From: Daucus carota subsp. sativus
Taxonomy: Eukaryota > Streptophyta > Magnoliopsida > Apiales > Apiaceae
DNA: 64,000 nt
Direction of reading: 5' to 3'
Assembly (NCBI RefSeq): GCF_001625215.2
Contig: NC_030383.2
Location: 6,150,779-6,214,778 of the forward strand
Part shown: positions 21,940 to 53,718 of the stretch, in pieces
Layout: each line of letters begins with the position of its first letter
How positions within the stretch are numbered: the stretch's first letter is position 1
Made by a program: the position numbers and the translations under genes
Notes under the pieces: generated by a model
Databases searched by the model: none
Seen by the model: the letters and a program-made list of their open reading frames with translations, nothing else
Told to the model about the DNA's origin: nothing

Positions 21940-22130
21940 TGTTACATAGAGAGTATATTTCAGAGTTAGTTGAGAGAGAGTGCCAACTCAGCATAATAGA
22001 CAGCTCAGCATAACAAATTTTTAGTCTAGATCCTTCTATCAACTTGTATATATACATAAGCATGTACAGTTTTAAGTTTTCAGTTTTATGAAATAGCATT
22101 TTCATTTCTGTGATATTCTCTGTTGTGATA
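21940..22130 (+). repeat. 5' LTR of the deleted Copia element
   Basis: 191 bp, the same length as the 3' LTR and differing at one position (T here, C in the other copy, near 22017). It is followed at once by the tRNA primer site. Confidence 0.95.
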
Positions 22131-22172
22131 TGGTATCAGAGCGAGGTTCTCTGGTAACATTTCGAGCAGATT

Positions 22173-23908: not shown

Positions 23909-24089
23909 AGAGTATATTTCAGAGTTAGTTGAGAGAGAGTGCCAACTCAGCATAATAGACAGCTCAGCATAACAAACTTTTAGTCTAGATCCTTCTATCA
24001 ACTTGTATATATACATAAGCATGTACAGTTTTAAGTTTTCAGTTTTATGAAATAGCATTTTCATTTCTGTGATATTCTCTGTTGTGATA
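23899..24089 (+). repeat. 3' LTR of the deleted Copia element
   Basis: 191 bp, nearly identical to the left LTR. It is preceded by a purine tract at about 23889-23898 and followed by the CTAGG target duplication. Confidence 0.95.
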
Positions 24090-28700: not shown

Positions 28701-31700
28701 TATCATATCTTTGGGTCAACTCTCAGAAGCGGGTAATAAAGTTATATTGGAAGGGGACTATCTGTGGGTGTATGAGGAGCAAGGTCGATTATTGATGAAG
28801 GTGAAAAGAACTGAGAACCGTCTTTATAAGATAAGTCTCGAGGAGAGCAGTCAAATGTGTTTCTTTTCAAAAAATGAGGAAGATACGTGGATGTGGCACA
28901 CAAGACTTGGACATGTAAATTTTCAAGCTCTGGAACTCATGTCAAGGGAAGGAATGGCACACGGAATTCCAAGAATGGTCCAACCGAAAGAAAAATGCGA
29001 AGGATGTTTGATGACAAAGCTGGCTAGGACCTCTTTCCCATCTCATACGAGTTTTGAGACAACGACCCCCCTTGAACTTGTGTATGCAGACATATGTGGC
29101 CCTATCATGCCTGAGACTCCCGGAGGTAATCGTTATTTTTTATTATTCGTGGATGATTATAGCAGGAAAATGTGGGTATACTTGCTAAAAGAGAAAAGTG
29201 ATGCATTTGGTATGTTCAAAAAATATAAGGCAGTGGTCGAAAAAGGTACAGGGAAAAGCATAAAGATGTTGAGAACGGATCGGGGGGGTGAGTTTTGTTC
29301 AAAAGAATTCACATCCTATTGTGAAGAAATGGGTATCGAGAGACAATACACTGCTCCGTATACTCCGCAGCAAAACGGGGTGGTCGAGAGGAGGAATAGA
29401 ACAGTAGCAGCGATGACCAGAAGTTTCTTGAGAGAATCAAAGTTGCCATCGTATATGTGGGGGGAGGCAGTAAGGCATTCCGTATACGTGCTAAACCGTT
29501 TGCCAACAAGAGCTTTGAATGGAACAACCCCATATGAAGCTTGGGGAGGCAGGAAACCAAACCTGAAACACATCAGGTTGTTTGGCTGTATAGCTATCAT
29601 GAAGGTCCCATCTGTGCATGTAAGTAAGCTGGACGATAGAGGAAGAAGAGTTGTGTACCTTGGGCGAGAACCGGGAACGAAGGGCTGCAGACTATATGAT
29701 CCGGTTACAAAGAAACTACAAGTGAGTCGAGATGTGGTATTTCGAGAGAAAGAACATTGGTCGTGGGAGAAGAATGAACAAGACGTGAACATTCCTGGAT
29801 TGATCACAATGATTGAAGATAATTCTGAGAAAGACAGTAGTACTGAGACTGGGGAAACTTGCTCAACCCCTGTGCGTATGATAGAAAACAGAGGCGCTGA
29901 CATGTCTGTAGAGAGGTCTGCTGCAACACCTGCGAGTAAACCTCGGAAATACAGGGGATTAGACGAGTTGTATAGTGAGACTGAAGTCATAGAAATGTTG
30001 GATGAACTTATGTTGTTAAAGGTCGAGGAACCAATGAACTATCAAGAAGCTAGCATGAAGAAGGAATGGAAGGACGCCATGAACATGGAGATGGAAACTA
30101 TCGAAAAGAATAACACCTGGGTGCTTATGGATCTTCCACCTGGGCACAAACCTATAGGACTAAAGTGGGTATTTAAATTGAAGAAGGATTCGGAAGGCAA
30201 CGTGGTGAAGCACAAGGCTCGACTTGTCGCGAAGGGTTATGTGCAGCGAAAGGGAATTGACTACAACGAAGTGTTTGCACCTGTGGCTCGACTTGAAACA
30301 ATACGTTTGTTGCTGGCATTATCTGCAAAAGAAGGTTGGGAGGTGCACCACTTGGACGTAAAATCAGCATTTCTAAATGGAGAACTACTTGAAGAAGTGT
30401 ATGTTATGCAACCAGAGGGATTCGAGAAAAAGGGAGAGGAACGAAAGGTGTATAGGTTATTGAAGGCACTTTACGGGTTACGTCAAGCACCGAGGGCCTG
30501 GAACGCAAGGTTGGACAAATGCTTGAGAGACTTGGGATTTAGGAAGTGCCAACATGAGCAGGCTGTTTATACAAAGTGCCAGAATGGGAATGTTGTGATC
30601 ATAGGTGTGTATGTAGACGACCTTTTGGTTGCAGGATCGGATCAAGAGGAGATCGAGTTATTTAAGAAGAAAATGAACGAGCAGTTTGAAATGAATAATC
30701 TGGGTCTACTGTCATATTATCTTGGAATCGAAGTTCATCAAGGAAAAGCATGCACAACACTGAAACAGTCTGCTTATGCTAAAAAAATCTTAGAAAATGC
30801 GGGAATGTGGAAGTGTAACTTAACCAGGAGTCCAATGGATCAGAAATTACAGTTAGATAAAGATGAAGACGGACAACCAGTGAATTCGACTGAGTACAGG
30901 AGTGTTGTTGGCAGCCTGAGATATTTAACTCACACGCGACCGGATATAACATTTGCAGTTGGGGTTGTTAGTAGATTCATGGAGAGACCCACTGTCAAAC
31001 ATCAACAAGCAGTAAAGCAAATTCTGAGGTATGTAAAGGGTACTGTGAACCACGGGTTGGCATATGCAAGGAATGGAACCAAGAAAGTTATAACCGGTTA
31101 CACAGACAGTGATCTAGCAGGTGACGTGGTTGATCGGCGCAGTACGGGCGGCATGTGTTTTTACTTGAATGGGAGCTTGATCTCATGGGCTTCACAAAAA
31201 CAGAGGGTCATTGCACTTTCTTCATGCGAAGCGGAGTACATGGCTGCAACTACAGCAGCCTGTCAGAGTATTTGGCTTCGTGGGCTGCTGGGAGAGATTT
31301 CTGGGCAACAAGTAGGAGCAGTGGTGTTGTGTATTGATAATAAATCTGCGATTGAGCTGATGAAGAACCCTGTGCTGCACGGAAGGAGTAAGCACATAGA
31401 TGTTCGTTTTCACTTCATTCGTGAGTGCATCGAGCGAGGAGAACTAGTGATTAAATATGTGGGCACGCAGGAGCAGAGGGCAGACATTTTAACTAAGGCA
31501 CTGGGAAGAGTTAAGTTTGAAGAGATGAAGGCGTTGATTGGGGTTGAAAATCTTGCTGAATAAAAGTCTGAGCGTATAGCAGCAGATAACATGTTTAGAT
31601 TAGGAGGGAATGTGTTGGTTTTATTTAATCTAAACATGATATTTTAAATAAAATTGTAGCTGTTGGAGCTATATTCTAGTGATAGAGACAGTAGCTTAGT

Positions 31701-32104
31701 AGTAGGAAATAGATAAAGATATTAGAATTGAGATAGAAGTTGGGAACTGATAGTAGAGTTGTGTTAGGAGTTTAATTTCTCTAGCTTGTACTGCACTATA
31801 TATTTTCACGTCTGCTGCTTGAATTAATAAGAAGTTTTCTTTGCTTATTTCCATTTCTTATATCAGCTGTGTGTGTAAATCGTGAGTAGATTCTATAAAA
31901 TCAAATAGCCAAGAAATTAACTAAAACCATCATTATATTTGGGGTGTTAAATCAATTATTAACAATACCAGCTTTTTGTGGTAAAGCAATCCAATTGCCT
32001 CCAGTTCCATGCTTCTCTATGTAGTCTTTAAGCTTGGCATCTTCTTCAGATGACCATGGCCCTCTCTTCACATTAGCCTTGTCACAACAAGGTGCTCTTC
32101 CCAT
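25722..32104 (-). CDS. R2R3-MYB transcription factor, RAX/MYB36/MYB68 type (subgroup 14), three exons
   Basis: Exons on - are 31969-32104, 26930-27059 and 25722-26535; the joined frame is 359 residues. Exon 1 encodes [20 protein letters not shown] and most of repeat R2. Exon 2 carries [20 protein letters not shown] and the start of R3. Exon 3 completes R3 with [20 protein letters not shown]. The conserved tryptophans and the [14 protein letters not shown] segment are typical of the RAX/MYB36/MYB68 clade, whose members act in axillary meristem formation or endodermal barrier differentiation. The C-terminal 240 residues are Ser-, Asn- and Pro-rich with no known domain. Intron positions match standard R2R3-MYB genes. 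Intron 1 is 4.9 kb because it contains a complete Copia element in the opposite orientation. Which clade member this is cannot be decided here. Confidence 0.93.
27174..27458 (+). repeat. 5' LTR of the intact Copia element
   Basis: 285 bp, identical to the 3' copy. It contains a likely promoter TATA region (actatatatttt near 27355). Confidence 0.95.
27496..31563 (+). CDS. Copia gag-pol polyprotein, uninterrupted, 1355 residues
   Basis: The domains follow the Ty1/copia order. Gag occupies roughly residues 1-250. A zinc knuckle CX2CX4HX4C is at about 258. An aspartic protease is marked by DNGAS at about 337. The integrase has a His/Cys region near 467 and a D-D-E triad at about 532, 595 and 631 (the last two acids 35 residues apart, as expected). 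Reverse transcriptase has its YVDD box at about 1039, and RNase H shows TDSDLAG and SSCEAEY near 1200-1240. Integrase before reverse transcriptase separates Copia from Gypsy. The frame is open slightly further upstream, but the first ATG is at 27496, soon after the primer site. All catalytic residues I looked for are present, so the element may be competent. It is transcribed in the direction opposite to the host MYB gene. Confidence 0.96.
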   Translation: MEANKSKENGIGLSYPMLTKTNYAAWAQKMMVFMQAHGVWDAIEPKDPKTVVDDKMDKRALAVIYQGIPEDLLLALADKKTSKEAWNAVKTMSLGADKVKKAKAQTLKGEFENLSMKDSDQLDDFYLKLHGLVSNIRALGEKMEESYVVKKLLRAVPSKFLQIASAIEQFGKLEEMSVEEVVGSLKAHEERMRGSSETNQGHLLLTEEEWRKRDSSEGHLLLTREEWMKKNSEGTRNINENRGREANRGGRDRSKLRCFNCQGLGHFAYECRKPRRGREVQKEVNLSQIQGDEPALLIAEVDKVERKNMMLLNEEMVAPKLTDKAEGHRDSLIWYLDNGASNHMTGQRGKFKELDESVTGKVKFGDGSTVNIKGKGVVAFKCKNGEEKMLNEVYYIPTLCNNIISLGQLSEAGNKVILEGDYLWVYEEQGRLLMKVKRTENRLYKISLEESSQMCFFSKNEEDTWMWHTRLGHVNFQALELMSREGMAHGIPRMVQPKEKCEGCLMTKLARTSFPSHTSFETTTPLELVYADICGPIMPETPGGNRYFLLFVDDYSRKMWVYLLKEKSDAFGMFKKYKAVVEKGTGKSIKMLRTDRGGEFCSKEFTSYCEEMGIERQYTAPYTPQQNGVVERRNRTVAAMTRSFLRESKLPSYMWGEAVRHSVYVLNRLPTRALNGTTPYEAWGGRKPNLKHIRLFGCIAIMKVPSVHVSKLDDRGRRVVYLGREPGTKGCRLYDPVTKKLQVSRDVVFREKEHWSWEKNEQDVNIPGLITMIEDNSEKDSSTETGETCSTPVRMIENRGADMSVERSAATPASKPRKYRGLDELYSETEVIEMLDELMLLKVEEPMNYQEASMKKEWKDAMNMEMETIEKNNTWVLMDLPPGHKPIGLKWVFKLKKDSEGNVVKHKARLVAKGYVQRKGIDYNEVFAPVARLETIRLLLALSAKEGWEVHHLDVKSAFLNGELLEEVYVMQPEGFEKKGEERKVYRLLKALYGLRQAPRAWNARLDKCLRDLGFRKCQHEQAVYTKCQNGNVVIIGVYVDDLLVAGSDQEEIELFKKKMNEQFEMNNLGLLSYYLGIEVHQGKACTTLKQSAYAKKILENAGMWKCNLTRSPMDQKLQLDKDEDGQPVNSTEYRSVVGSLRYLTHTRPDITFAVGVVSRFMERPTVKHQQAVKQILRYVKGTVNHGLAYARNGTKKVITGYTDSDLAGDVVDRRSTGGMCFYLNGSLISWASQKQRVIALSSCEAEYMAATTAACQSIWLRGLLGEISGQQVGAVVLCIDNKSAIELMKNPVLHGRSKHIDVRFHFIRECIERGELVIKYVGTQEQRADILTKALGRVKFEEMKALIGVENLAE
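31590..31638. repeat. 13-bp perfect inverted repeat around the purine tract and 3' LTR start
   Basis: catgtttagatta at 31590-31602 is exactly complementary to taatctaaacatg at 31626-31638. The 23-base loop holds most of the purine tract and the first bases of the LTR. Because the right arm lies in the LTR, it also occurs in the 5' LTR, but the left arm does not. Confidence 0.7.
31613..31897 (+). repeat. 3' LTR of the intact Copia element
   Basis: 285 bp, identical to the left LTR, followed by the AAATC duplication and then the remaining MYB intron 1 sequence. Confidence 0.95.
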
Positions 32105-36418: not shown

Positions 36419-37267
36419 GGGTTAAATGGCGTTTTGGTCACTCAACTGACTGTAAACTTGCAATTGCGTCATCCAACTCAAAAAGCTGTCAGTCACATCA
36501 TTATACTCTTAAAAATTTTCATTCGGGTCACTGGCCGTTACATTCCGTTAAATATTTGACGGAAAGCTGACTAAGCGTCGTAACTTGGCTTAAATAAATC
36601 CATTGTGGCATGTACAGTCAGCTGAAATGGCATTTTGGTCACTCAACTGACTTCAAACTTGCAATCGGGTCATCAAACTCAAAAAACTTTCATTTAGGTC
36701 ACTCATCATAATACCCGTTAAAAATTGAAAAAAGAAAGAATTAAAAGCTATCAAGTAGCACCTTTTTAAAAAAAAAATTTTTTTGAAACTTCTTAACAAA
36801 TGAAACAAATACACACGCATAAAATCAATAGTTTCACCCACAAAAACTTAATCTTTGTTTATCTCGTATCGTTTTATATATCTTATGGCCATTTTGGAAA
36901 AACTTCGTACTTATAAATCTATTAACAGTTTATAATATATTTTAATTCTTTCTTTTTTCAATTTTTAACGGATATTATGATAAATGACCTAAATGAAAGT
37001 TTTTTAAGTTTGATGACTCGATTGCAAGTTTGAAGTCAGTTGAGTGACCAAAATGCCACTTCAGCTGACTGTACATGCCACAGTGGATTTATTTAAGCCA
37101 AGTCACGACGCTTAGTCAGCTTTCCGTCAAATATTTAACGGAGTGTAACGACGAGTGATCTGAATGAAATTTTTTACGAATATAATGACGTGACTGACAG
37201 TTTTTTGAGTTGGATGACCCAATTGCAAGTTTCCGATCAGTTGAGTGACCAAAACGTCTTTTAACCC
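36419..37267. mobile_element. 849-bp Mutator-like (MULE) foldback element
   Basis: Long inverted arms of about 328 bp each (36419-36746 and 36940-37267) surround a 193-bp AT-rich centre. The element is flanked by a perfect 9-bp duplication ATTTGTGAC (36410-36418 and 37268-37276). A 9-bp duplication and long arms beginning GGG are Mutator-superfamily marks. Each arm contains two direct copies of a block around ttttggtcactcaactgact, about 200 bp apart. No transposase frame is present. Confidence 0.92.
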
Positions 37268-37276
37268 ATTTGTGAC

Positions 37277-38882
37277 AGGAGTCGGGGAGAAAAAAAAATC
37301 TTGTTTGACAATCAGGACGGGTCCGAGGATGGGTATTAAATTCGGGACTGAGACGAAATCAAGAAGCGGAAATTTTTTCTAAAAAATTGAAGTCATTTTG
37401 GATTGCATTGGAGATAATTTGGATAGTATGGAATTATATTTGATTGTAATATCATAATAATTATATAATAATTACAGGTTAAAAGACACCATTTCCAATT
37501 AATATTATATTTTCACATATATTAATTTCGTCTCATTTATTCTTATACATTTTTATTGCTCAACACTCAATTTAATATTTATATAAAGTATAATTTATAA
37601 CTAATTTTTAAAAAAAATATATTTTAGGTAAATAATTATTAAAAAATATTAAAAATAAATAATAAAACTATATTTACAAGAAACATTAAAGTGAATATTG
37701 CGAATTCGAACATTCCCAATTAACGTTAGTCAGAACCGAAAACGAGAGAAACATTATTTAGCTAGCTGACTAGCTGCTAGCCTGCTAGTACAAGGTACTA
37801 AGGTAGGAGTATATTGCATGAGAGCATGCTATACAAGACGACACAACAAATTTCAATCTTAGCTTATTGACCCGTTGGGCACAGCCACATTATTCATCAG
37901 CCACAAACAACTGTAAATAAAATCCCAGATCTTGAATATGTACGTGTTCAATTATTTATCGCGTGACATCCTTCATTTTCGTTTCTAAATCTAGCCGTTG
38001 ACGACTTGACGGATCTTGTCACCCTATTTCTCTTGGCCACCGATCGCTACTAAAGCCTCCCTATATTTTGGCAATGTAGGAACGAGATCTCCAGCGGGAC
38101 AGGGCTCGAAGTTCGAGGTGGGCCCTGCTGGGTACCACTTGGGTCATTTTCAGCCTTTTCAGCTTTAAATTCCTTTCTCTCTATTGTGGACAAATGGATA
38201 TGGGTCCGATTTGTACTATATTCACATGGCCCAAATAGTATAAATGATATATATATATATATTTATCCGTGTTGTAATAGTTAGAAATTATTTTTCTGAT
38301 ATAAAATTAATATTGTCTGTTATTTTTATCAAGTTCCTATCATTTTAATTATATTATACAATTTTCTTTTAAACTCCACGTCCATTTAAATATAAACAAA
38401 TGAGTAGGAGGATGCAGCGATTGTGATGAAAACTACATAATCAGTTTAATTTTTATTTCCCTAATATAAATCTAGACAGGGCTACATGAAACTATCCTAA
38501 TTTGGACAGAAACTAATCGGGATCATGCGGAGGATAACGGTTTGAGAACGGATAGAGCCTAGAAGTTAGAATGATGACAAATCGTTTAGTTCGAAATTGG
38601 CTATGGGGTTATATTCAAGTATTAATAAGTTCAAATCTCTGATTTAAATTTTGAGTTCGTGTTTTGAATTTTAGATTTCAGATTTCGAGTTTTGGATATC
38701 CATATTCGATCTAACAAAAAAAGTTGTATTTCGGATATATTCCAATCCAATCCAAAATCCGTTAAATCGAGTTCAGGTTTTCGTTTTCATGTATTTTTTG
38801 AATTAAGATTTAGATAAAATTTGAATTTTGTCCGACTCGATTGTCATCTTTAATTATTGAGATACGGGTTTTATAGAAAAAA
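37277..38882. other. intergenic, repeat-derived
   Basis: No gene. It includes a (TA)n run near 38248-38268 and, around 38620-38850, stretches of repeated gttttgaatttt-like words. The first 120 bases (gacgggtccgagg, attcgggactgag) resemble the G-rich stretch near 6420-6540 in style only. Confidence 0.45.
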
Positions 38883-39084
38883 CTAGTATATTTTGCCCGT
38901 GCTTCGCACACGGGTAATGTTTATTGTTTTCATATTTTTATAATTGATGACTTATCTGTACACATCCAATAATCATATTTTCACTGCATATTGTTACGTG
39001 TCCTTTTTTCTAATTCTATGATTTCACAATTTTACAAAACATACATATCATATTTGTGTTATTAGATCGTCCTCTAAATCTACA
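38883..39084 (-). repeat. Helitron-like 3' terminal region, copy A
   Basis: About 200 bp, closely matching 46037-46236 in tttgcccgtgcttcgcacac, gtacacatccaataatca and tattgttacgt. It contains the terminal hairpin and CTAG. Confidence 0.8.
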
Positions 39085-39693
39085 TTATCTTCGTTAATCA
39101 GATTCTTAAGCTTCGGTTCTTTTTCTGTTATAGCTTTAATCTCCGGAGAAAAAACATTGGTTATTTGATTTTGGGATTGATTTTAAAAGGCAAAGTTAGC
39201 TCCATATACGGGATGGAAAACCAAATACAAAACTGATTGGCATTTAACAAAACTAATCCGCTTAAGTTTGTCGAAAATCATTTTTGTGGTTATTATACCA
39301 AGCATTCTCTTCACTCCTCGGTCCATCACGATAAAATTGTATGCTTCCGTGTAATTCTCGCCAAAAATACCTAAATCAAACAACAAAAAGTAAATATTTT
39401 TTTTTTTTTTTTAAGTCTATGACAATTACATGATAGAGAATGTAGTGACTTTTCATGCTCAGGCCTCTTCTCTACGACGGGAATTTAATGTTTGCGGTTG
39501 TTCCAAAAAAACTTACCATCTTGTTCTCCACCTATGTTTCACAACTTTCATAGCTATTGTACCACCAACACAGTAAATTTTTATAATATTTCCCGTGCTA
39601 CGCATACGGGGATTGATTTTTTCTAATTCATGTATATTTTATCATTGTGAAAAAAATAGCTCCTTATCATCTAAGTGTGTTTTCTATGATGTA

Positions 39694-40193
39694 TAGTAGA
39701 AACTCTTTAAATTAATACTCTATAAATTAATAAATTCTTTAAAATAATAAATTTGTCCGGTCCCGACTTGGGCTAGTGTAAAAAATTGAAAAACTCGATA
39801 AAATAATAAGATAATTATTTTTCGGGAGATCCCTTTATAATTTTCGGTCCCAAAAAAATCATAAATTAATAATTCACAGAAAGTTGCTTAAGAATACTGT
39901 ACATTGAACACATTTATTCCTCTTGTTTACATTTAGTGTATAGTACTTCAAAAGCCATCGTTAATTTTCAATACAAATGAACACAGTAGTTACTAATTAT
40001 GTTGAGACTCATGATTCGCTGCAATGTAATTCTAAGAGCTATACACTAATTTGTTTTTTTTGTTTGGTATGTACAATATAATCGGTTAAAAACTCTTTAA
40101 ATTAATAATTATTAATTTATCGATAAATTAATAACTCTCTAAATTAATAAATTCCTCCGGTCCCAATAATATTAATTTATAGAGTTTTCACTG
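39694..40193. mobile_element. 500-bp Emigrant-like (pogo-type) MITE
   Basis: The ends are TAGTAGAAACTCTTTAAATT and, inverted, CAGTGAAAACTCTATAAATT, flanked by TA (39692-39693 and 40194-40195). These resemble the termini of the Arabidopsis Emigrant family, related to pogo/mariner transposons. Subterminal ccggtccc motifs occur in opposite orientation in the two halves. Confidence 0.75.
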
Positions 40194-40195
40194 TA

Positions 40196-41482
40196 TTTAG
40201 CTGAATAAATAAATTATGCTTTATGAAAAATATCAAATTTAACAATAACAACTTGAATAGTCTTGATGAAGTATGAAAAAATTTTGTTAATAAAATATTC
40301 AATTGATGAATGAAGTAGTCAAAATTAAAATTTTGTATGAGAAAAAATAATATTAAAAGCCATCTATCTATTTTCGATTCACTCTTGCATAACCATATTT
40401 TTGCACTTCTTGTCATGATTTATTAGAATTTGTTTCATATTTTTCAGGATAGAATTTGAAATAAATTCACAATTATTTTCATAATTCATAATATTGATTT
40501 ATAATTATAATACTTTAATTTTAGATTAAATTAGTTTGAAGGATTATCTTCTTCTAATATAAAGATATTAATATCCATCACTTTCAAAATATTTTAGTTT
40601 TGATGATAAGAATATCTTTAATATGTTATTATATAATAAGATAAATATTAAAATATAATTTATACTCTTTTTAATAAAAATATATTATATTATATTATAA
40701 TAATTTCTCGGCCTCGATTTACTCTCTATGTTAATTTTGAAAAAAAAAAATCGTTATAAAAGAGTATGTATAAGTAAGCCTACAATATCTCTTGTGTATA
40801 GCATTCACTTGTACATTAATTACATTATAATTTTGTAAAACTGAACGACAAATCATAAAAAATTTAAACCAATAAATTATAAATAAATGTTATTACAACC
40901 TTGTGAAATTTCATATGTATATAATAAAATATATTTAGAATTATATAACTATTCTAATATAAAAGAAAACATCAATGTTTAGTACAAAATATACTCTAAT
41001 ATATAAAGTTGTAATATAAAAAGTAGGAAATTAAAGTTATATGTTATATAATAAATTATTCTTGAAAATACATAATTTAAAAAATTATTAAATTAATGAT
41101 AAAAGTACAATTATAATTATTTTTATCAACAAATTATATTTAATAAAGATAATTGAATAAATTAAAATTGTATTGAGTATTTCTCTTTAAAAAAATATAT
41201 TAAAAAAATTAATTTATAACCCTTCTCTGAAAGACATGGTTAGGCTCCTGGAATTAGCCTGATGGATGTGTAAAACTTAACAGTTTCTGTATCATTAATA
41301 AACAATATAAATATAATTTGGTACATCCAGATATTTGTTTTGTCATGGCCTTTTACTCATGACCTTTTACAACTTGATCAAGAGCTACACCCCGCTATTC
41401 TATACACCTGTTCTCCAGAGGAGTGAGTTGCACCAGCTATTCCATGCACATGTTCTGCAGAAGAGTTTTTTTGCTATTCCAG
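40196..41482. other. very AT-rich spacer
   Basis: Nearly pure A and T for most of 40400-41220. Nothing recognisable as coding or structured repeat. It lies between the MITE and the 3' end of the exon-array gene. Confidence 0.5.
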
Positions 41483-44400
41483 TTAGGGATACTGATGCTG
41501 TCTGGGATAGGGCATTGGTGAGATAGGTAAAGACGGCTTATTAAGTGTATTTGCTCGTTGTTTCAAAATCCTGCCCAAAGGCCTCTTATAGGTATTCCCT
41601 GCCGGAATATAGTTGCATTTGGTAACTCTGTCTTAAATAATCATGACTCATGTTAAAAAAAGTATTGTAGAATAACCTGATAGTGCAGCACCCTGAATCT
41701 TCCTTTGTGTTTGAGGCAGCAATGAACCTTCATCTGTAACTGCACTTCCACATCCTAAACATGATGAGTCAGGCGTGGGATGTGACTTTTATCATGAAAT
41801 AATGACTAAAAACACACTGCAAACATTGCCTGTTTCTCGAAAATTTCATTAACATGTTGACTGTATATAATTAAATAATACATATGATCAAGAACCTCAA
41901 AGGATTACATGTCTGCAAACACAGAACATACTTTTAAAAAATTAAAAACAAACACATAATAGCGAGAAGAGTCAGAAGACTTACCACTTGAGTGTCCAAT
42001 GGAAGATTCGACTCTACGGATTCTGCTCTGATTGGTTTGATATGTAAGAATGCTTCCTGTATTCATGTTAATTTGACAAACAACCATTAACGTGGAAGAA
42101 TGGACAGTTAGGTGGGACAATCGGAAAGCAGAAACCAAATAGTACTTCATACCAAGTGAGTTTCCAATAGAATGTTGAGAAGTATTGTCACTGCATTGAT
42201 GGCTATCTCTGCAACCTGTAACCATCAAAACAGGACATATCGTCGAGATTTGCAACATATACACAATTTTGGCAAAGATTTTCAGCAGCGAAGAAAGGAG
42301 AGGTAAAAAAAAGGAGAGATTATTACACATGTATCATCAAAAATAAAAAAACATCTGCTAAAGTTAAACTATATCAACGTGTTAAAACTTAGAGTCAACT
42401 TCGAACCTTAATTTTAGCAATCAGTGGCTGATTCTTTTTTTATTATGGCCACCGCTCCCTGCTGTAACATGGTTGTAAGTGGACTTTGACGTCTAACACC
42501 TGACAGACCAAGTATATATTAATGTGAACACACTACATGTATCTGCTTCTGTAAAAAAATCTCTGCACATACTTTTCTAATAGCTTAGAATTGTTTAGGA
42601 GCAATTTTTTTCAAGAACGCAGTATATATGTGCATTCTCTGGGATCTCGACTTCTCATCGTTTTCTTAAAATTGTTTGAGTTTCAGCAATGAAGAAGCCA
42701 ATTTTGTTTACAGAAGCAGATGGATAGTCATTTGTTATACATCCAGAGAGCAAGATATGCTACTGCTTAAACTCCACTCGGTAGTAAATACAAATAGAAA
42801 TAAGCAAAGAACAAAATATCATAAAATGGAGAAAAAGTTATCAACTTCACGCAACCTCCTTTGCAAAGGAGAGCAAAAATCATGAGTAGTACCGAAAGAG
42901 GTTCCACTATTAGGCTGAGAATTTTCATTGTTTCTTTTTGGTGGTAACCTGGGCTTCGTGTTTCCTTCATAAATTCCAAACATAAATTCCAATCAGTATG
43001 AGCGGCGGAAAATAAATAACGGAGTAAAATCAAATTCCAAATATATGCACAAAGGTAGAGCACTGACACTACATGTAACTTTTCATTTCAAAAGACTTAA
43101 ATAAATCAATAGTTAAATGTCTACCTGGGTAACATCTAGATCATAAACCCGAGAATCTAAACCCATTACTTATCGGCTCAAGAAATAAAATTTTACTCTT
43201 GTTGAAAAGATCCCAGATGATTACTCATGTAGAAGAAGCATGTACATACTTTGTTAGAACTAATGGGGAAAAAGAAGCAAGAATATCAGTTGGTGCAACT
43301 AACTTGTACAAATGTTGTTGTCACTGTTTCTCAAATTTTGCAATCTTCTTCCGCAAGCCATAGTTTTCATCGTTTTTATTTTGTACTGTTGCCTCCGTCT
43401 TAAGAACTCTCCTTTGCAGCTTAAGATGTTTCGAGTTAACCAGCCTCGTGATACTGAGAATTGAGATGTCTGTATGTTCTGTTCGCAATATTTCTAGCAT
43501 TTTCAGCTCGAACATCTGCAAGACAAATAAATCCAAATTAGATTCCTTAGAATTTTATCACTATCCAGTTATTTGTCACTGTAAAAGCCTGAACGTTTTT
43601 TATTGGGGGAGTAAAGGTTTATTAAGTTTTAATAGATTAAAGCCATAGACTTCATCAAGAGCCACGCTATAGCAGCAATATTATATAGTTCTATGAATTG
43701 TTTAACATGGATTACATGATTGCAGTGTAACTATCCCCCTTATGAGATCTTGATGGCGGTATCCATTGAAGTATGTCTGAGTGCCAAGCATCATTTGGAG
43801 GTCCTTTTCGCTTGTATAATCCACTATATCAGTCTGTATACAGTAGAATATATGTAAGTGTGCAATTCCCAGAAAAGTAACATACATTAATTGAAAAGGT
43901 AAAATCAAGAGAGCAGAAGGAGTTATTAAAACATGCTTGCCAGTAGTTCAAATGTTTAAAATAAAAAGGATATATTTGGTCATTTTTGAAAGTCTTTGTA
44001 TTCAGGAATTACGATTATATGGATAGATTAAATATTATAGATATCGCACAATTAAAATATTAACGTAGTATTTTAGTAACAACTTGGTGATGTAGTGACT
44101 AACCGCCTGAGGGTGGAGCACTCACAGGATTTAGTACTTTTGAAGCTGCAGGTAGTTGGAATTTCCTGCCATCGTTAAACACTGTCTGTTTCCTGTTAAT
44201 AAGTTTGGACGTTGAAACATTTTGGCTCAGTCCTGGGAATACAAATTTACACATTTCAATCGTGTACAGTTATCATATAAGAATTTGAAGTAAGGATACT
44301 GGGATACCTACTTAAGAAATAAACACCCTGAAGCCGTCTTTGCAATGGCGTGAGATAACCCTGACCACTTTTTTGATTATTAGAAGAGAGATCTTTGTTA

Positions 44401-45695
44401 TGTAGATGTCTTTGTGATGTTGTGATATATCTCGGATTTCCGCCAAGACCGGATTTGCCTGGACAGAAAAAAAAAAGGTGAGACTGCTTTATTCCAATTA
44501 TGAAATGGACTTGGGAGACACTTGTAATCTGGAGGTTTTAACCATCAAGAATCAAGAATCAGAGCAATACATGGTGGCTGAGGAGGTACATTTTATCTAT
44601 AACTTCGACATGTTTAAGGAGGAGAAATATCTTGTGTAAAATTGGAACCTACAATCAAAGACCCTACACCATAATCAGTATGTTTAAACAAACTGATTAT
44701 GGTCAAACGATGACACCTAGTGTTTTAAATAATATAATAAAAAATTATTCATCTCTATAACGTTAATAGGGTCATGTTCAAAACAAATAAGGTAATTTGT
44801 AGGGGTGGCAATCGTTTCGTTTCGTGCAACACAATGGCCAAGTGAAACTATCCGTTGTGAAAGTGATAAAACTTGCTCTATTTATGCATTTAAAGGTATT
44901 GAAGATATAGAACCGTGAAGCCGCCACCCTGTGGATTGGTAGATTATACGCCATATATGCAGGGAGAGGCTTATGGTCAGTTTGTGCAATTTCCGTACTT
45001 GTATTAACCACATTGGATTTTACACAGATTTTTAGAGTTTATAAATTCTTGATTGCACTAAAAGAAAGGAAAAATATATATATCAAAACAAAGATAGTTC
45101 CCTTCTCGGGTGACAGTACTTGAGCTGGAAATTGAAAATCTCAAAACATATTTTACAAAATTAAATGATCATGTCCAAATCAAAGACAAAGCAAGCAACA
45201 ATTTTCATTGTTAGTCCGTGTTTGATGGCAATACCAATACTCAGAAATACAATATCCACAGACCCAGTATTCAGTACGTTACTCAAAGCATTACTTTTGG
45301 CCTCTTTAAGGGAATGCCTCTTCTGTTCTACTAAATCGAAAGTGTCAATAAAGCAAACAATAAACCAAAATACAACCAGAACATACCAGTGCGTCCAGTG
45401 GAAATCTGGATGGTGTTCGGATCATTGTTTTCACCCGAATAAGAACCAGACATATCTTCTGTCCTGATAAAATGAGCAAAGACACACTTCTTGGGTCGAA
45501 ACGAAACAAAAACAAAAACCGATAGGAAGAGAACAGTTATTCAAACTCACCTGTACGTGCTGAAGAAGGAGATAGAGGATCCAAATGAACACGCTTATGA
45601 CCTGTTTATCATTAAAGCAAAAGCTTACGACGAAAAAATTACGAAACATCCAGCACAGAGAGGACTATCTGTAAGGAGTTACCTTTAGGGTCCAT
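41483..45695 (-). CDS. uncharacterised gene built from short phase-1 exons (locus A)
   Basis: I see nine exons on - that join in one frame: 45683-45695, 45551-45601, 45387-45458, 44312-44458, 42893-42964, 42153-42215, 41985-42056, 41677-41754 and 41483-41598 (stop). All are bounded by GT-AG, and every internal exon starts and ends in phase 1 with a length divisible by three. The product would be 227 residues, rich in Ser, Asn, Gln and Arg, without a known domain. Motifs include LDPLSPSSART, GYLTPLQRRLQGVYF and NTYKRPLGRILKQRANTLNK. Further open exon-like pieces lie at 44126-44232, 43790-43846 and 43321-43519 (coiled-coil-like, ending in a stop) and may be alternative 3' exons. The start ATG at 45695 is a choice; an in-frame ATG exists further upstream. 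The related locus B lies at 49660-50577. Function is unknown; it may be Helitron-associated. Whether one transcript spans all exons is unproven. Confidence 0.45.
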
Positions 45696-46036
45696 TAATT
45701 TAGAGTTATGCTGAGATGATTCTGAGGATTTAAAATTTGAATTGAAGAAGAAGAAGTGGGAGACATGGAGAAATAACTGAACGGACGCTAAAATCATGGC
45801 GCCTTTTGCCGAGGAATTAGGAAGTCTCTGCGGGTACGACCCATATAAGTATGGGTTATACATCAAACAACACAGAAAACATATAAAACTGGGTATGGAT
45901 CTAATCCGGGGAAAAAGGGTCAGCCCGGAAATTTAAGCAAAAGACAGTTATGTCCCTGGCTTGTTTGTTAGAAGAAAAATAAGGAAGGGTAAATAATGTC
46001 TTTTGCAATCCTGTTTGTATTCACAAATTAGGATTA

Positions 46037-46236
46037 CTAGTATATTTTGCCCGTGCTTCGCACACGGTAATGTATGTTGCTTTTGTATTTTTATAATTGT
46101 TACTTATATGTACACATCCAATAATCACATGTTCACTACATATTGTTACGTCCTTTTTTCTAACTCCATGATTCCACAATTTTACGAAACATATATACCA
46201 TAGTTTGTTATTAGATCGACATCTAAATCTTTTTAG
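46037..46236 (-). repeat. Helitron-like 3' terminal region, copy B
   Basis: Matches 38883-39084 over about 200 bp. Its CTAG terminus lies only 3 bp from the proposed TC start of segment A, so the two segments are head-to-tail neighbours. Confidence 0.8.
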
Positions 46237-47225
46237 GAATTCATTGGAAAAATGATATCTCATAAAACTATTGAATCAAAAGACTTCTCGTTTCGAAAAC
46301 TTTAAAACCTGAATACTCTAGTCAAATGGAACTTCTTAACAATAATAGAAATTCTTAGACAAACACCAATAAATTTAATAATATCCATTGAGTAAAGAAT
46401 AATAATAATAATAATAACTGAAATGCTTCCAAGGGAGAGCTCCTCATGCAAATCGTGAAACGCAACAAATAAAACCACCTTTTATTAGCAGCAGTGGAAC
46501 TCACGGTTCCTGCATTTTTTATAGAGTGGATGTAATCAGTTAAGTTTTAAATAAACACATGCGTGTAATGAATGAGGGAATATTAGGCATCAAGAATAAG
46601 CCAACCAATTTCATTTTTTTGGAAGAAGATTTTGAGGTTGATGGTGTGTCATTCTCCTCTGAAAACTTGATGACAGAGCTCTGCAAGTAAAGTTTTTATC
46701 CCAGGAAATCATATTATGTCTTATATGGAGTATTTTGCATAATAAAATGCTTATATTATCAATAGAAGATGTTGTGTTGGAAGTACCTGACACACTAATA
46801 GCAGAGACATGACATCAACAGTAAAAAAACAGCCCGTTATTCACCTTAACATTTTCTTCATTGATCAATAACTCAAACCTGAGTTAAAGACCACCAAACA
46901 CGTGCATAATGAAAATAATAATTTTAACCAAAATTAACAATGTTGAAGCATAATTAACTTATTTAGACACTAAAAAATTGATCGAAATTGCAGAAAAAAA
47001 GAACACACTTCAGCCGTCACGTGCTTCAAATACTTGGATGTACTTAAATAATTTACCACATATTCTAAGATGATTAAAATTGAAGTCAATAAGAATCCTC
47101 AACAAAACATCACTATGTGTAATTATAATAAATATTTTATATGTATAACAATATATTTTGGTAATTAAAAATGTAAAAGTAATTATTTTTTTCTTATTGT
47201 ATGATGTGGCGATTTCAGTTTTAGT

Positions 47226-47400
47226 GATAGACGGTGAATCCTTGTAATTTCGAGATTGAGTATAAGTTTTGTCTTCGAATTTTGGGAGTTTATATATATT
47301 AAATATCGATTTAAACATTTATAATGATAGACAATGAATCCTCGTAATTTTGGGATGGAGCATAACCTTTGTCATATTAAAAGTCGGTTTAAATCGTCTA
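47226..47400. repeat. 100-bp-period tandem repeat, about 1.7 copies
   Basis: gatagacggtgaatccttgt at 47226 recurs as gatagacaatgaatcctcgt at 47326. Similarity continues through the following attgagtataa / atggagcataa and cggtttaaat-like words. Confidence 0.7.
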
Positions 47401-47899
47401 CATCCCACTCATCAAGGGAATGATGTACCTAGTTATTTATTCCAAATGTCCTCCTAATTAGCCCAAAAGTTGGTCTATGTTCAAATGGTCAAGCTGGCCT
47501 GTCCCAAGTTGTTGAGTTTTTTTTTTATTTGAAATATTTTAAAAATAATAGTATCTCTTAACTATTAGTAAAATATTTTTTTTATAGAGGAATGTATTAT
47601 TTTGGACGATATTGTGAAGAAAATAATAAACTTTATGTCTTATTTATAGTTTCATATTATGTTTTATACACCAATTTGGATCTGTATTTAAAATAACGTA
47701 TTTACTAAGTGAAAAACTTATTCATAATAATCTATTATTCTTTCCGTCTTCGTATAATTATAATTTTGATCTTTTACACATAATTTAAGGTGGCTAAAGA
47801 AGGTACTATAGTTCAATTTATTCTCTTTTATTGCGGAAAAAACAAAAAAAAAATATAAAGTATAGTTTGAACCAAAAATTCCTTTTAATAGTGAAAATT

Positions 47900-48660
47900 T
47901 ATTGTTTTTAGTCACATTAAATTTTGTGTAAAAAAGGCGACCTTTTATTTTTGAAAGTTCGAAGCAAAATGAGATCCAAAAAAGTATTATTTAATAATCG
48001 GCAATTTTTTAAAATAACAATTTAATAATTATTTTAATTTATAATTTCAAATTAAAAATTAGTTTTTTTTTCTAATTTCTTCTGAAGGAAAAACTATAAA
48101 TTATAAATTTTAGAGTTGATTTTTTTTAAATAATGAGAAATTATATTTCTTTTTAGGGACCTTCAATTATGTGTAAAAAAGACGATCTTTAATTTTCAAA
48201 AGTTCGGAATAAAATGGGATCCAAAACAACATTGTATAATTTTTTTTGTAACTTTTCGGTTAATGCAATTTGAAGCAATTTTGTCCGTGCTACTACGCAC
48301 ACAGAAAATGAGATCGAAAAAAGTATTATTTAATAATCGGCAATCTGTTAAAATAGTTATTTTAATTTCTAATTTCTTGCTAAAATAGTTATTTTAATTT
48401 CTAATTTCTAATTAAAATTTAATGTTTTTTTTTAATTTCTTCTAAAGAAAAAACTATAAAAAATTTAGAGTTGAAAAAAGAATTTTTTCAAATAATGAGA
48501 TATCAATTTCTTTTAGTGACCTTAAGTTGTGTGTAAAGAAGGCAATCTTTAATTTTTAAAAGTTCGGAATACAATGTGATCCAAAACAACATTGCATAAT
48601 TCTTTTTATAACTTTTCAGTTAATGCAATTTTGTCCATACTACTACGCACATAGATAATT
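47900..48660. repeat. three-copy degenerate tandem repeat with Helitron-like hairpins
   Basis: Copies start near 47903, 48140 and 48500. Each has a tttttagtgacctt-like block, gtgtaaaaaaggcgatctt, aaaagttcggaa and gatccaaaacaac. The second and third copies continue to gtaacttttcggttaatgca and ttgtccgtgctactacgcac, the latter resembling a Helitron terminal hairpin. These look like repeated ends of related elements. Confidence 0.65.
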
Positions 48661-49659
48661 ATTTTCTATACAATAATATTTTAAAAAATTCAAAATTTAA
48701 TAGCATCTTAAAATATAAAACAAATGTTAAAAAAACTTGATATGTCAAAATAATTTAGACATTTGTAAATTGGATATCTAGCTACATGATATATATTAGC
48801 ACCTTCTGTAAATTAAGTAATTTCATGCCTATGGCTAGAAACTTTCAAATAAAAGACAGATTAATTTAAAATGAATATTGCAAGCAACTGAAAATTCTTA
48901 TAATTGTAGCCGAAGCCTGCATTTGAACTGAAGAAATAAACACTCAGTAATTCATAACAATAGAAAATTGCATATCAGAGATAGCCACAACCTCTTTATG
49001 CAGAATCTGATCATTTGTATGACCAAGACTGTTGCAATATACAGTGGTGTGCTACCAATTTTAGTTCAGAGAGCATCCCAGTGGCATTGGTTTCTGGGGC
49101 TGAGCAAGTCACTTCGGCTTGTTCATTTCAGCAAACTTGGATCAGGGACACACTGCACCACTTTTGGCAGCCCTGACAGAACTACCTTGAATTTGAAAAT
49201 ATAAATTTATCAGTGATAAGCCTAGCAAAAGAACATCTCAGTTTGAACCAGTAACAATGCCTATGGTGGACCTGTTAGTTGAGCACAGATAATCATAACA
49301 GAAATTTCACTGCACTGACAGGGGAGAAACATAGAACTATTATCAGCGTACATGCTTCACGTAGTGGTTAAACATACCACATGACTCATGGCAAAGACTA
49401 ACTACTTGTGGAAAAAATTCAAGTAATAAGCGTGTCAAGATATCAATCATGTCATCTTGTGTAGACACGTAATAATTATCATAAAAGACACCAAAGAGAG
49501 GATCTATCAAGATTATATGTTAGACCATGTTTCCCTCTGTAACTAAAATTATAATCAAGTTAGCGAATAATAGGTCTCTATGAAAATTCTAACCAATCAA
49601 GACTAATCTAAGTGATGTTTTTATATAAATCTCAAATTAATTCTTCGTCAATTTCAAAG

Positions 49660-50577
49660 TCAGCCGAAAGCACTGAAATCATATAGAGAGGCATGAAACA
49701 TAATCTCTACAATTCCATACTCTACTGCAACAGAGATGTTTGGTGGTTTAAAGATAGGCATAACAAAATTCTCACAGCCCAGACAGGGAAGAAACATACC
49801 ATAAGTATGCATGCCACACCTTAAACAAAGCAAAAAGGAATTGTTACTCACGCTCTGCTTATTTGACTGTATCGCTATAATTCGGGCCAGGGGTGTTCGT
49901 TGAGTAACAGCTGCAAAAACACGGTTGGTTAGTCCTGAAAACCACGAATAACATACATCGTCATGAGAGCTTGGTTGGAAGTATTCCTCATTGTCATAAC
50001 AGACAAATCAACGTCACGCAACCTCCTCTGCTATTCCATCTGAAACAAATAACAAAAACCAATGACATGAGAAAAAAAATATATCTATACTTTATATACT
50101 AAATAGGCTGTTGAATGCTTTGCGAAGACCAGGCTTTATCAAGAGAGTTATACCAGAAGGCAACTGAGAGCATATGGAGAATGAGCTTTATAAAGAGAAA
50201 GTGTGTTAAGGCCAGACAATCCTGTTATACACGCCGTGCAGATTTCCAAAACACAATAAATTGGCATCACAGTTTTAACGTATACACTCATTAATGAACA
50301 ACATAACCTGCATGATTCTCCAATGAGACAGATTATAGAATGTGAAGCCAAGAAAGGTTGAATGTAAAACCTGATGTTCGAATGTTGCGATTCGAGTTTT
50401 CTGAAACTGTGCCTCTGATCTGCACGTCACCGTTGCTTGAATAGACAGGCCGACGTTTCTCTGACAACAAAGAACAAACAAATAACATTATTAGAAGATA
50501 ACGAAGATCGCATACAGTAGACTAACCATTACTCCCGGAAGGAGGAGACAAAGGACGGAGTGGACGTTGAGATCATC
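49660..50577 (-). pseudogene. degenerate paralogue of the short-phase-1-exon gene (locus B)
   Basis: Exon-like pieces on - correspond in order and phase to locus A. About 50527-50577 reads QRPLRPLSPPSGSNG (compare KRVHLDPLSPSSART); 50371-50460 (90 nt, phase 1 to 1) reads RPVYSSNGDVQIRGTVSENS. A piece starting at 49910 reads AVTQRTPLARIIAIQSNKQS and stays open to 49660. Near 50025 QRRLRDVD matches QRRLREVD of locus A. In the first piece two TGA codons lie just upstream of the exon and the expected AG acceptor is missing, so this copy looks broken or is spliced differently. Confidence 0.35.
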
Positions 50578-51702
50578 AGTGCGTGAAGGAAGATGACATA
50601 AATGTGAACTCTGGAAGGCAAATAACCAACCGGACATGTTGATGAAGAATCCGGCAAGGACGCCACCATAAAGTGTTACAACCAAGGCTACGATTGGAAG
50701 GTATCAAATCAAGCCTCCACTAATCAAGGAATTTGAATTTCACGAGAAGATGATAGTGTTGTGCGTGAAAGGTGGCAGTTGGAGAAAAATCAGATGAAAG
50801 TTACGTGCTTTCTTAAAACTGTTATAACCCGTATGGTCACGGATAATCCAACCCAAGCACTAAAAAGAACTGAAATAGACATGGGTTCGACCCGTTTGTA
50901 GATGGATGATCCAAGGATAAGTAAAATGTCTAAAATACACATGCAGTCTAACTGTAAGTAAAGAGAAGGAAGGGCAAGATCGGTCTTTTGGAATGGCGGA
51001 AAGAAACTCAATGCTAGCACAAATTTAGAATATGTTGATGTTGATGTTGATATAGATATTCAACTAAAAACCATACATCGTTTTGGAATGAACAAAAAAT
51101 ACAAAGGAAAGCCACCAACTAAACAACGCCGTAAATTTGTCCTCCCTTGAATCGGCTCCACAAAATATTTTATACATCGGACGTGTGGACCTTGTCAAAT
51201 GTAGGAAGGGAATTGTTAGGATAAAAGAGATCTATCTAGTTTTGGAATGTTATGTTCCGTAATGTGTTCATGGGGTTTTAGATCTTACAAGATTTGCTCA
51301 ACAATAAGATCTTTTGTTTTGTATAGTTGATAGGCGGTGCCGCGGTGGGATATTCTAAATAAAACACAAATTCGGTAGTCCTATAGTGAACAATGAACAA
51401 CTAGTTGACATTCATGTATCTAGCTTTGAATTGAAGGTGAGGAGGATAAGATATGCATATTAAATATGAGAAACAACTTACTGTTCACCCCATCAATATT
51501 TCCTCATGGACCCTTGTAAAATGAAGACTTTGTACTATTCCGTATTCTAATCAGTACAGTGATACCACATTTGAATCAATTTTTCTGTAATATTTGTACA
51601 TTGTAAACATGCACATAGTTTTGGGTTTTAACAAGTTCGGTCTTCGGAACATAAGCAAGCTGCAAAGTTTATCTTCCGATTTTAAATAGATCAAGACATA
51701 GC

Positions 51703-51958: not shown

Positions 51959-52358
51959 CATAATTATCGAGTTCAAGTTCGAGTCAGTGTCAATTATATG
52001 TTTTTATTTATGATTGATATTCTTTTTTCAGGAAAATGTAAGTTTAGTGAAGATTTCCATCATCAAAGGCTTCTTGAATTTGCAAGAAAAGGAAAACATA
52101 CACAAACTTGTGGCTATATGATGAGGAATCCTCTTGCGTAGAAAGCAGCAATGTCATTTCGACAATTGTACGAGTAAATATTGACATATATAGTTGCATA
52201 TGTGATGGATGGACATGTCGGGGGAGAGATCGATCTGGATTCTGGTCTGCTCGCATTTATTATTGAATGGGGGTACTCAACAACTCTTCTACAGTCGTGC
52301 AACTCAAGTCAACAGCTTATTTTCTCACAAATTTAATAGCCGGGACGAACTTACAATT
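51959..52358. other. intergenic region
   Basis: No supportable gene; overlapping short frames at 52044-52302 have no protein character. Confidence 0.4.
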
Positions 52359-53551
52359 TTATAAAAGAAAAATAGATTTTTTTACCACTTAATTTATAGT
52401 GTTTTTAGAAACTTGCCACCCAACTATATTTTGTTTTCTTTTACTCACTAATGTTAGGTTTGGATTTTTTTTAGCCACCAGCTTAGGTTCGGATTTCATT
52501 ACTAGCATTATATTAATTTTATTTGTCACTAAACTTATTGTTTCTTTAGAAATTAACCACTCAACTATATTTTTTTTATTTTACTCACTAATGTTAGGTT
52601 CATTTTTTTTTTGTCACTGAAGTTAGGTTTGAATTTGATTATTAGCATTACATTAATTCTGTCTAGTATTATTAAAATACAGTGGTAGTCTGTAATAATA
52701 CTTTGATGATTTAGTATATGTCTGTATCTTTATATATAGTATTTTTTATGTCTCCAACGTCGTTTACTTTGGGCGATAAGAATTTTACACGCATTTGATG
52801 ACTTTTAAAAGACTACTTTTCATAAATAAGTTTACTTTTTTCTTCCGAATAAAAATTCAGCGCTTGAATTTTTACACACATAAAAAATCACAGAAATAAG
52901 TTATGAAACTATATTTTATAGGAGTCTTAAAATACGTACGAAGCAGTAGAAAAAATTGTAAATTAATGAGAAAGACGGAGGGAGTAATAATAATAAAATG
53001 ATGCATTATAGAGGGCAATCATCGAAAATTAAGTTAACCTCTCTATTTATTTATCTTGAAAATTGTAATAAGATAAAGTTATTAAAATTTATGAAGATAA
53101 ATTTGAGAGAGATTTTAGACTGAGCTTGTCGATTGAAACTTTAATAGCGAAAGATGATGCATCATATCATTCAATTACACTTTATCTTATGAGGGAGGGT
53201 GAATTGTTTGAAGTCATTGATTTCATATTCATGATTTATTGAATTTTTAGAATTCTAATTACGATTTTTCCTGGTTTTAATTTTTCGTCGGCTCATTTTA
53301 TATTATTATTGTTATATATAAAGATATAAACATACGACACATCATCAAAATATTACATACTATCACTATGTATAAATGATGCTACAATGATTATCATAAT
53401 GCTAGTAATCAAATCCAAACCTAAGTTGGTGGCTAAAAAAAGATCCAAACCTAACATAAGTGAGTAAAAGAAAAAAAAAATTAGTTGGATGGCAAATTTC
53501 TAAAAACACTATAAGTTGAGTGGCAAAAAAATCTATTTTCCCTTTTATAAA
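52359..53551. mobile_element. about 1.2-kb element with 155-bp inverted ends
   Basis: The left arm (52359-52516) and right arm (about 53396-53551) are inverted copies, sharing aaatagatttttttaccact, ttttactcactaatgttagg and tttggatttgattactagca. The left arm is followed by a second, direct partial copy of itself (52540-52665). A sequence near 52970 (gacggagggag followed by TA) looks like a Stowaway end inside the element. The boundaries and target duplication are not clear, so the superfamily is unassigned. Confidence 0.65.
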
Positions 53552-53718
53552 TGCTTTGGCCGATCATGAAATTATTTCAAATACAATTTCAAATATTTTA
53601 TGACCAAAGGGACATGGTTTCAAATGCAGAGGATCGTCCCGAGTTTAACTTTTTTTTTGAAATGAGCAAAATGGCTGAGTTTTTTTATCAAATAAAAGAT
53701 GATACAATATCAAATATT

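Follow-up and report, generated by a model that had tools for sequence, protein, structure and literature searches.

How do two Helitron-like segments come to lie head to tail within a few bases of each other, and are they copies of one element? The question is raised by a stretch of the carrot genome (Daucus carota subsp. sativus, contig NC_030383.2, positions 6,150,779 to 6,214,778), and "the window" below means this whole stretch of 64,000 nucleotides (G000:C3:6150779-6214778), which we analysed against a genome of 441,086,747 bases in 11 contigs. Plant non-autonomous Helitrons begin with TC, end with a hairpin and CTRR, insert between A and T, and carry fragments of host genes in the sense orientation. 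An earlier note, made from the letters of the window, read the locus as two related copies of one such element lying side by side, each with the same gene. We consider it highly probable that the history was another one: a first Helitron, A, was already in place, a second, B, is nested in its 5′ end, and both are cross-family hybrids that were moved in trans.

As the earlier note had seen, both elements end on the minus strand with a hairpin, CTAG and then T, at 38883 for A (tail, 38883..39081) and at 46037 for B (46037..46069). The 32-bp ends at 38882-38913 and 46036-46067 are identical (no match in 100 shuffles), and a stem-loop folds at each, with z −3.5 (0/200 shuffles as good) and z −2.3 (6/200). 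The proposed common terminal sequence of about 200 bp was measured at 200 bp and 88% identity by direct comparison. Further copies of the ends, expected if these are Helitrons, were found with a 238-bp tail query, which gave 43 matches at about 40 or more distinct genome places, a lower bound since the scoring covered 40 of 65 candidates; the last base is reached in 28 of the 43. The same query had no match in the plasmid collection. Eight genomic 3′ ends that were fetched read CTAG|T in six cases, CTAA|T in one and GTAG|T in one. Genome-wide, the pattern of hairpin, CTRR and T, as in canonical Helitrons, matched 138 times, compared with 0 for the reversed pattern.

For the 5′ ends, a pattern built from five ends of the type found in A matched 95 times in the genome, with no match for the reversed control, and the upstream flanks of all 95 were inspected. 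The usual end is A|TCTATATAATCCTAAT, with the usual start TCTATATAATCC. Just upstream, TCTATATAA/TAT or something close to it is found at 73/95; another 6 lie directly against a foreign CTAG, and the remaining 16 are degenerate forms or repeat variants. None of these flanks showed a Helitron 5′ end facing the other way. Among the 68 starts that are exact, a further TCTATA stands ahead of 27, TCTA only ahead of 7, and neither ahead of 34, and 33 of these 34 are preceded by A, giving the TC-after-A start of canonical Helitrons. Some A-type ends have expanded TCTATA or TAATCC arrays (C1:16560535, C1:33335308, C2:31196809/31196912 and C2:25312498), which look as if this 5′ end grows and shrinks like a microsatellite. 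The two kinds of end belong together: 17 of the 40 3′-end places have an A-type 5′ end at most 12 kb upstream, on their own strand, compared with a mean of 0.054 and a maximum of 1 in 1000 random placements, and pairing in the wrong order or strand occurred once, a case we take to be the joint in the window. Of the 138 3′ ends, 100 were listed, and joining each of these to the nearest same-strand upstream 5′ end within 12.5 kb paired 43 and left 57 with no 5′ partner. The elements are thus multi-copy with ends paired at element length, as canonical Helitrons are.

The head of B is of another type. All nine B-type 5′ ends that were fetched begin with TCAA units after A, so B starts at 51050 (possibly 51044 or 51038), within in-register TCAACA units that are each preceded by A, and not at 51029 as first proposed, which is preceded by T. 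The upstream regions of A and B had been thought homologous up to these TC-starting sequences, and an end-to-end alignment was suggested as a check. Direct DNA alignment of the 5′ regions scored 42, within the shuffle range (maximum 51), and DNA homology was found only in the 200-bp tail and one 25-bp exon. Translated frames of A gave a long list of weak matches to B, which we discarded as evidence.

In the window the A-type 5′ end is split, with TCTATA upstream of B and TAATCCTAAT after the CTAG of B. The 7.15-kb rest of A (38883..46036, minus strand) starts with TAATCCTAATTTG directly after that CTAG, and the missing TCTATA lies beyond B, after GAATA (51051..51056, minus strand, with an A at 51057 ahead). 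Joining the flanks of B yields A|TCTATATAATCCTAATTTG, the usual A-type start, with no bases duplicated, as expected for Helitron insertion at A^T. Because restoring the 5′ end of A needs six bases from beyond B, we conclude that B, a 5.0-kb non-autonomous Helitron (46037..51050, minus strand), is nested in A. The 5′ end of A is therefore 51056 rather than 46033, and A spans 51056-38883 with B (51050-46037) inside it; the supposed 3-bp gap between two neighbours, TAA, is A's own sequence. The earlier identification of the two segments as properly ended, non-autonomous Helitrons is upheld, and the order of events, A and then B, follows from the nesting. The join is a strong case because TCTATA precedes TCAA in none of the nine fetched B-type ends (one, L016, has TCTA) and is rare in the window, at 0.0004 per position. 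If the nesting is true, an allele without B is expected to read GAATATCTATATAATCCTAATTTG, and one without A and B GAATA|TTTTTTCTATAAAACCCG.

The window is one of several such places. In six cases out of 95 an A-type 5′ end lies directly against the 3′ end of a foreign Helitron, always in the same orientation. A simple estimate, which takes the 95 5′ ends and the 138 3′ ends matching one pattern and ignores AT-rich target preference, puts the chance expectation at 0.00016. One of the six abutting 3′ ends (C4:15873155) has another hairpin. Flank joins restore the 5′ end in 4/4 joinable cases, of which only the window is strong; at C9:8368185/8375488 TCTA is followed by TATATTCTTAATTCC, and at C4:44386365/44377134 by TATAATCCTAATTCC. 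On C4, successive head-to-tail joints at 44377155 and 44351045 are followed by a 3′ end at 44345925 (44363601-44375499 left out), and the middle unit has long plus-strand frames that look retroelement-like by eye. It may be that the Helitron machinery targets the 5′ ends of relatives, in the same direction and a few bases inside TCTATA, so that polar chains are extended on their 5′ side and, when read through, yield head/tail hybrids; we offer this tentatively, as the less probable side of the question.

Sorting paired elements by their ends separates three families. Family I heads (C.TG.T) have ATTG/ATTA-type tails in 19/20 cases, family II heads (T..C) have ATAT-type tails in 8/8, and family III heads, the B type, have AAAGC-type tails in 9/10, two of these tails being on one head. 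C.CC.T heads have ATTG/ATTA-type tails in 3/4 cases, as does one C.TT.T head. Within families I to III, A and B alone depart from the rule, each having an ATAT-type tail. It is thus very probable that A joins a family I head to a family II tail, and B a family III head to a family II tail, and the two are not the related copies of one element that had been proposed: their heads differ in family, and only tails and a few exons are common. Longer comparisons agree with this assignment. The head of B (50160..51050, minus strand) is 92% identical over 51038-50160 to a family III element at C3:54015460-54011350, and its body and tail (46037..50031, minus strand) match the family II element at C6:30628029-30621480 in three collinear blocks of 97.9, 93.5 and 92.6%, with 1.6 kb of the C6 element absent from B and a 0.5-kb stretch of B without a collinear match. 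The tail of A is 91% identical to the C6 copy. Inside B, three copies of a 121-nt unit (64-88% to the reference) lie at 47906-48631, close to GCACAC/CCGTGC motifs of hairpin-like form, in a stretch where B departs from the C6 copy. Inside A, a degenerate Helitron-like hairpin without CTAG (39578..39609, minus strand) aligns locally to two of four family I tails at scores barely above 300 shuffles; this is suggestive that it may be A's own family I 3′ end, disabled and bypassed.

We hypothesize that A, with its family I head and family II tail, was in place first, and that B, with its family III head and the same kind of tail, then inserted in the same orientation at A^T within TCTATA^TAATCC, six bases inside A, the position being read from the sequence. 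A Rep/helicase encoded elsewhere would have moved both in trans. The hybrids themselves most likely arose by read-through, with one Helitron sitting in the 5′ end of another, and a later internal deletion would leave the head of one family with the tail of another.

Several points weigh against this account. The read-through is a step that we infer: rolling-circle copying would begin at the 5′ end lying upstream, fail to stop at the first 3′ end and continue to that of the downstream element. The flank joins come from one assembly, and no allelic empty site was seen. The joins at C9 and C4 were reduced from strong proof of nesting to moderate, since TCTA alone precedes 7 of the 68 exact starts (these two among them, with a further TCTATA before 27) and since their ends are paired by distance. 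The join on C7 fits, although the TCTATA array there gives no discrimination, and the joinable cases leave out C4:15873155 and C4:44351017, both on account of their left sides. An element at C5:29229316/29236183 has a C.CC.T 5′ end and an ATAT-type tail, so the family borders may be softer than we state. Among the ends listed, neither hybrid has a second copy, so that a hybrid could have formed after insertion. Among the places matching PF14214, a profile for which 150 of 344 candidates were scored (168 matches, 150 places compared with the Helitron ends), the 30 kb upstream of each of the 40 3′ ends contain none, while one is 29.8 kb from an A-type and one 13.4 kb from a B-type 5′ end.

How do other histories compare? 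Had the two elements inserted independently, 3 bp apart, A would begin at 46033 and TCTATA would be there by chance or belong to B. Both boundaries do still read A-T (46034 is A), and the portion of PMC12477314 available to us reports Helitron insertion near other Helitrons. This history is very unlikely given how rare TCTATA is in the window and its absence from the nine B-type ends; moreover, 73/95 A-type ends carry TCTATATAA/TAT or a close variant ahead, and joints of the same kind occur at five further A-type ends. Even less can be said for a rolling-circle dimer produced by a failed stop at the 3′ end. The order is head to tail, and the accessible part of PMC5148889 discusses tandem copies made by rolling-circle replication in fungi and in plant centromeres, but the units have only the 200-bp tail and one short exon in common, their heads are of different families, and the joint lies inside a 5′ end rather than joining CTAG to TC; we give such an origin almost no credence. 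A more serious proposal is that the hybrid ends were made in place, by deletion in an older chain of Helitrons, and that B never jumped as a hybrid. The successive joints on C4 show that the raw material exists, and the single-copy state of each hybrid fits as well. Against this, the two foreign ends of B exactly flank the restored 5′ end of A, with a single TCTATA on the left, whereas an older chain should have left a second unit there. We consider formation in place unlikely, and retain the nesting of B in A as the reading that best accounts for the joint.

An autonomous Helitron encodes a Rep plus PIF1-like helicase between its ends. No PF14214 match lies between the ends of A or B among the matches listed, and the 12 kb that follow each of the 95 A-type and 23 B-type 5′ ends contain none of the 150 PF14214 places. 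The A and B families are non-autonomous as far as seen among the scored places, and the full-length Rep/helicase relative that the earlier note suggested looking for was not found among them. One Rep/helicase gene, at C9:33024386-33029007, is 13 kb from a B-type 5′ end. We took it as a neighbour rather than the partner because a complete 3.4-kb element (33011946-33015308) lies between, and no 3′ end for it was found in the stretch read.

What do the elements carry? Short minus-strand exons with related sequence, their borders set by eye, can be read in both. In A these are GHKRVHLDPLSPSSARTG (45551..45601), with a weak match in the C6 copy (E 0.017); an exon ending in LTPLQRRLQGVYF (44312..44458), with five further genome matches (E 4e-12 to 0.48); and one ending in SPLQRRLREVD (42837..42950). 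In B they are EKRRPVYSSNGDVQ..IRTSG (50371..50460) and the exons QRRLRDVD and AVTQRTPLARIIAIQSNK (49850..50030). The claim that both elements carry the same gene thus holds for related short exons in each; only a few exons are common, and A alone has a host fragment. A query with the exon pair found 10 genome places (13 rows at E<=1), of which two have weak matches (E 0.46 and 0.84, A's own among them). Nine are followed on their own strand, no more than about 11 kb away, by a 3′ end with the common tail, and the tenth, C3:49859085, by a family I 3′ end 5.4 kb downstream. With a family 3′ end downstream at 10/10 places, the exons belong to the elements, and the hairpin ends are not those of much shorter, gene-less elements, a possibility that had been held out against the Helitron interpretation.

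We weakly infer that the elements carry the exons as coding relics, which may come from the N-terminal, multi-exon portion of a Rep/helicase gene of their own. A comparable series of short exons, SQFTPLQRKGSLR among them, opens one Rep/helicase gene of carrot, and this makes such a relic our leading, unproven guess. No sequence comparison of the short exons with Rep/helicase genes was significant, and tblastn of the exons against 1.5 kb upstream of 30 Rep/helicase places gave nothing at E 0.3. A loose exon motif matched upstream of 6 of the 30, three with the same sequence (YTPLSNRMKNK), which we do not count as evidence, and an exon match in a further Rep/helicase locus (L028, E 0.026) is of no help, as it lies downstream of the domain. 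Alternatively, the exons could derive from a captured host gene. Capture does occur here, since the A block 43937-43180 is host myosin-like, and the missing significant link to any Rep/helicase gene would fit. Against capture stand the 10 exon places, each with its family 3′ end, the joined exon protein, which has no Pfam match, and the similar exon string in the one Rep/helicase gene. We find a captured gene doubtful, if far from negligible.

The block at 43180..43937 in A (minus strand) contains myosin-type exons and is a fragment of a host myosin gene. Its parts 43937-43468 and 43421-43180 are 92% and 77% identical to C9:10817868-10818952, and a search for the fragment in B found no match. 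Protein pieces of the C9 stretch match six loci (C1, C3 twice, C4, C7 and C8), and at all six the coiled-coil piece is preceded, on its own strand, by Myosin_head exons. The myosin identity rests on this position beside Myosin_head exons; comparison of the fragment with Pfam and PDB sequences did not show it. We take the captured fragment to be of class VIII. A, and only A, thus holds part of a host gene that is present elsewhere, as gene-capturing Helitrons do. Its closest relative, a myosin-like copy at C9:10816900-10819600, has N-terminal, IQ-like and coiled-coil pieces, with no motor exons listed between them. Neither the C9 stretch nor a C6 relative (16238822/16236505) has a Myosin_head match among the matches listed, for which 65 of 184 candidates were scored.

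Other repeats lie in and around the nest. Within A, at 39697-40194, is an AT-rich repeat with ends like CTCTATAAATTAATA and GGTCCCGACTTGGG and borders set by eye, reminiscent of pogo-like miniature inverted-repeat transposable elements (MITEs). Long inverted repeats at 36419-37267 and 52356-53552, the first with arms of 333 nt (92%) and the second with arms of 117 nt (87%), are likely foldback or MITE-type elements. A Copia-type long terminal repeat (LTR) retroelement at 27170-31897 has a 1370-aa gag-pol frame enclosed by 289-bp direct repeats that are 100% identical, suggesting a very recent insertion; at 21940-24089, a 553-aa frame that includes an RVT_2 domain lies between direct repeats of 191 bp (99%) and probably marks another copia-type element.

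Parts of this history have precedents. In maize, the available part of PMC3288121 describes Helitrons inserted in Helitrons, proposed there as the source of elements with several 5′ or 3′ ends, together with stepwise capture of gene fragments and preferential insertion near other Helitrons. The carrot locus is like these maize cases in having a Helitron within a Helitron. It differs in that landings occur a few bases inside the 5′ ends of relatives, at 6/95 and in the same orientation, and in having two cross-family head/tail hybrids; judged from that part of the maize paper, the overlap may be larger. For Fusarium, the portion of PMC5148889 at hand proposes self-insertion of FoHeli and composite elements, with one FoHeli4 2 bp upstream of the 5′ terminal sequence of another, and explains three tandem Metarhizium copies by either repeated 5′-end insertion or rolling-circle replication. 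The FoHeli elements are non-canonical Helitrons with other termini than those of carrot, and these are single cases. Plant gene-capturing Helitrons, as far as covered by the accessible part of PMC12477314, have the same ends, A-T target and sense host fragment, whereas carrot has three matched end sets in one genome, two of them combined crosswise. A literature search, mainly of open-access texts available in part, found nothing on end families among carrot Helitrons and no genome-wide tally of 5′-end landings. Published work, judged from these sources, thus already covers Helitrons nested in one another, elements with multiple termini and insertion close to other Helitrons; the new parts are the recurrent one-way landing inside the 5′ ends of relatives and the two hybrids.

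If the targeting is true, the 5′ end of a Helitron would serve both as start site and as landing pad. Most of what is said about how Helitrons gain new ends and capture genes is still inference, and the three end families, the 6/95 landings and the two hybrids in one nest provide a testable route: nest, read through, delete, and jump as a hybrid.

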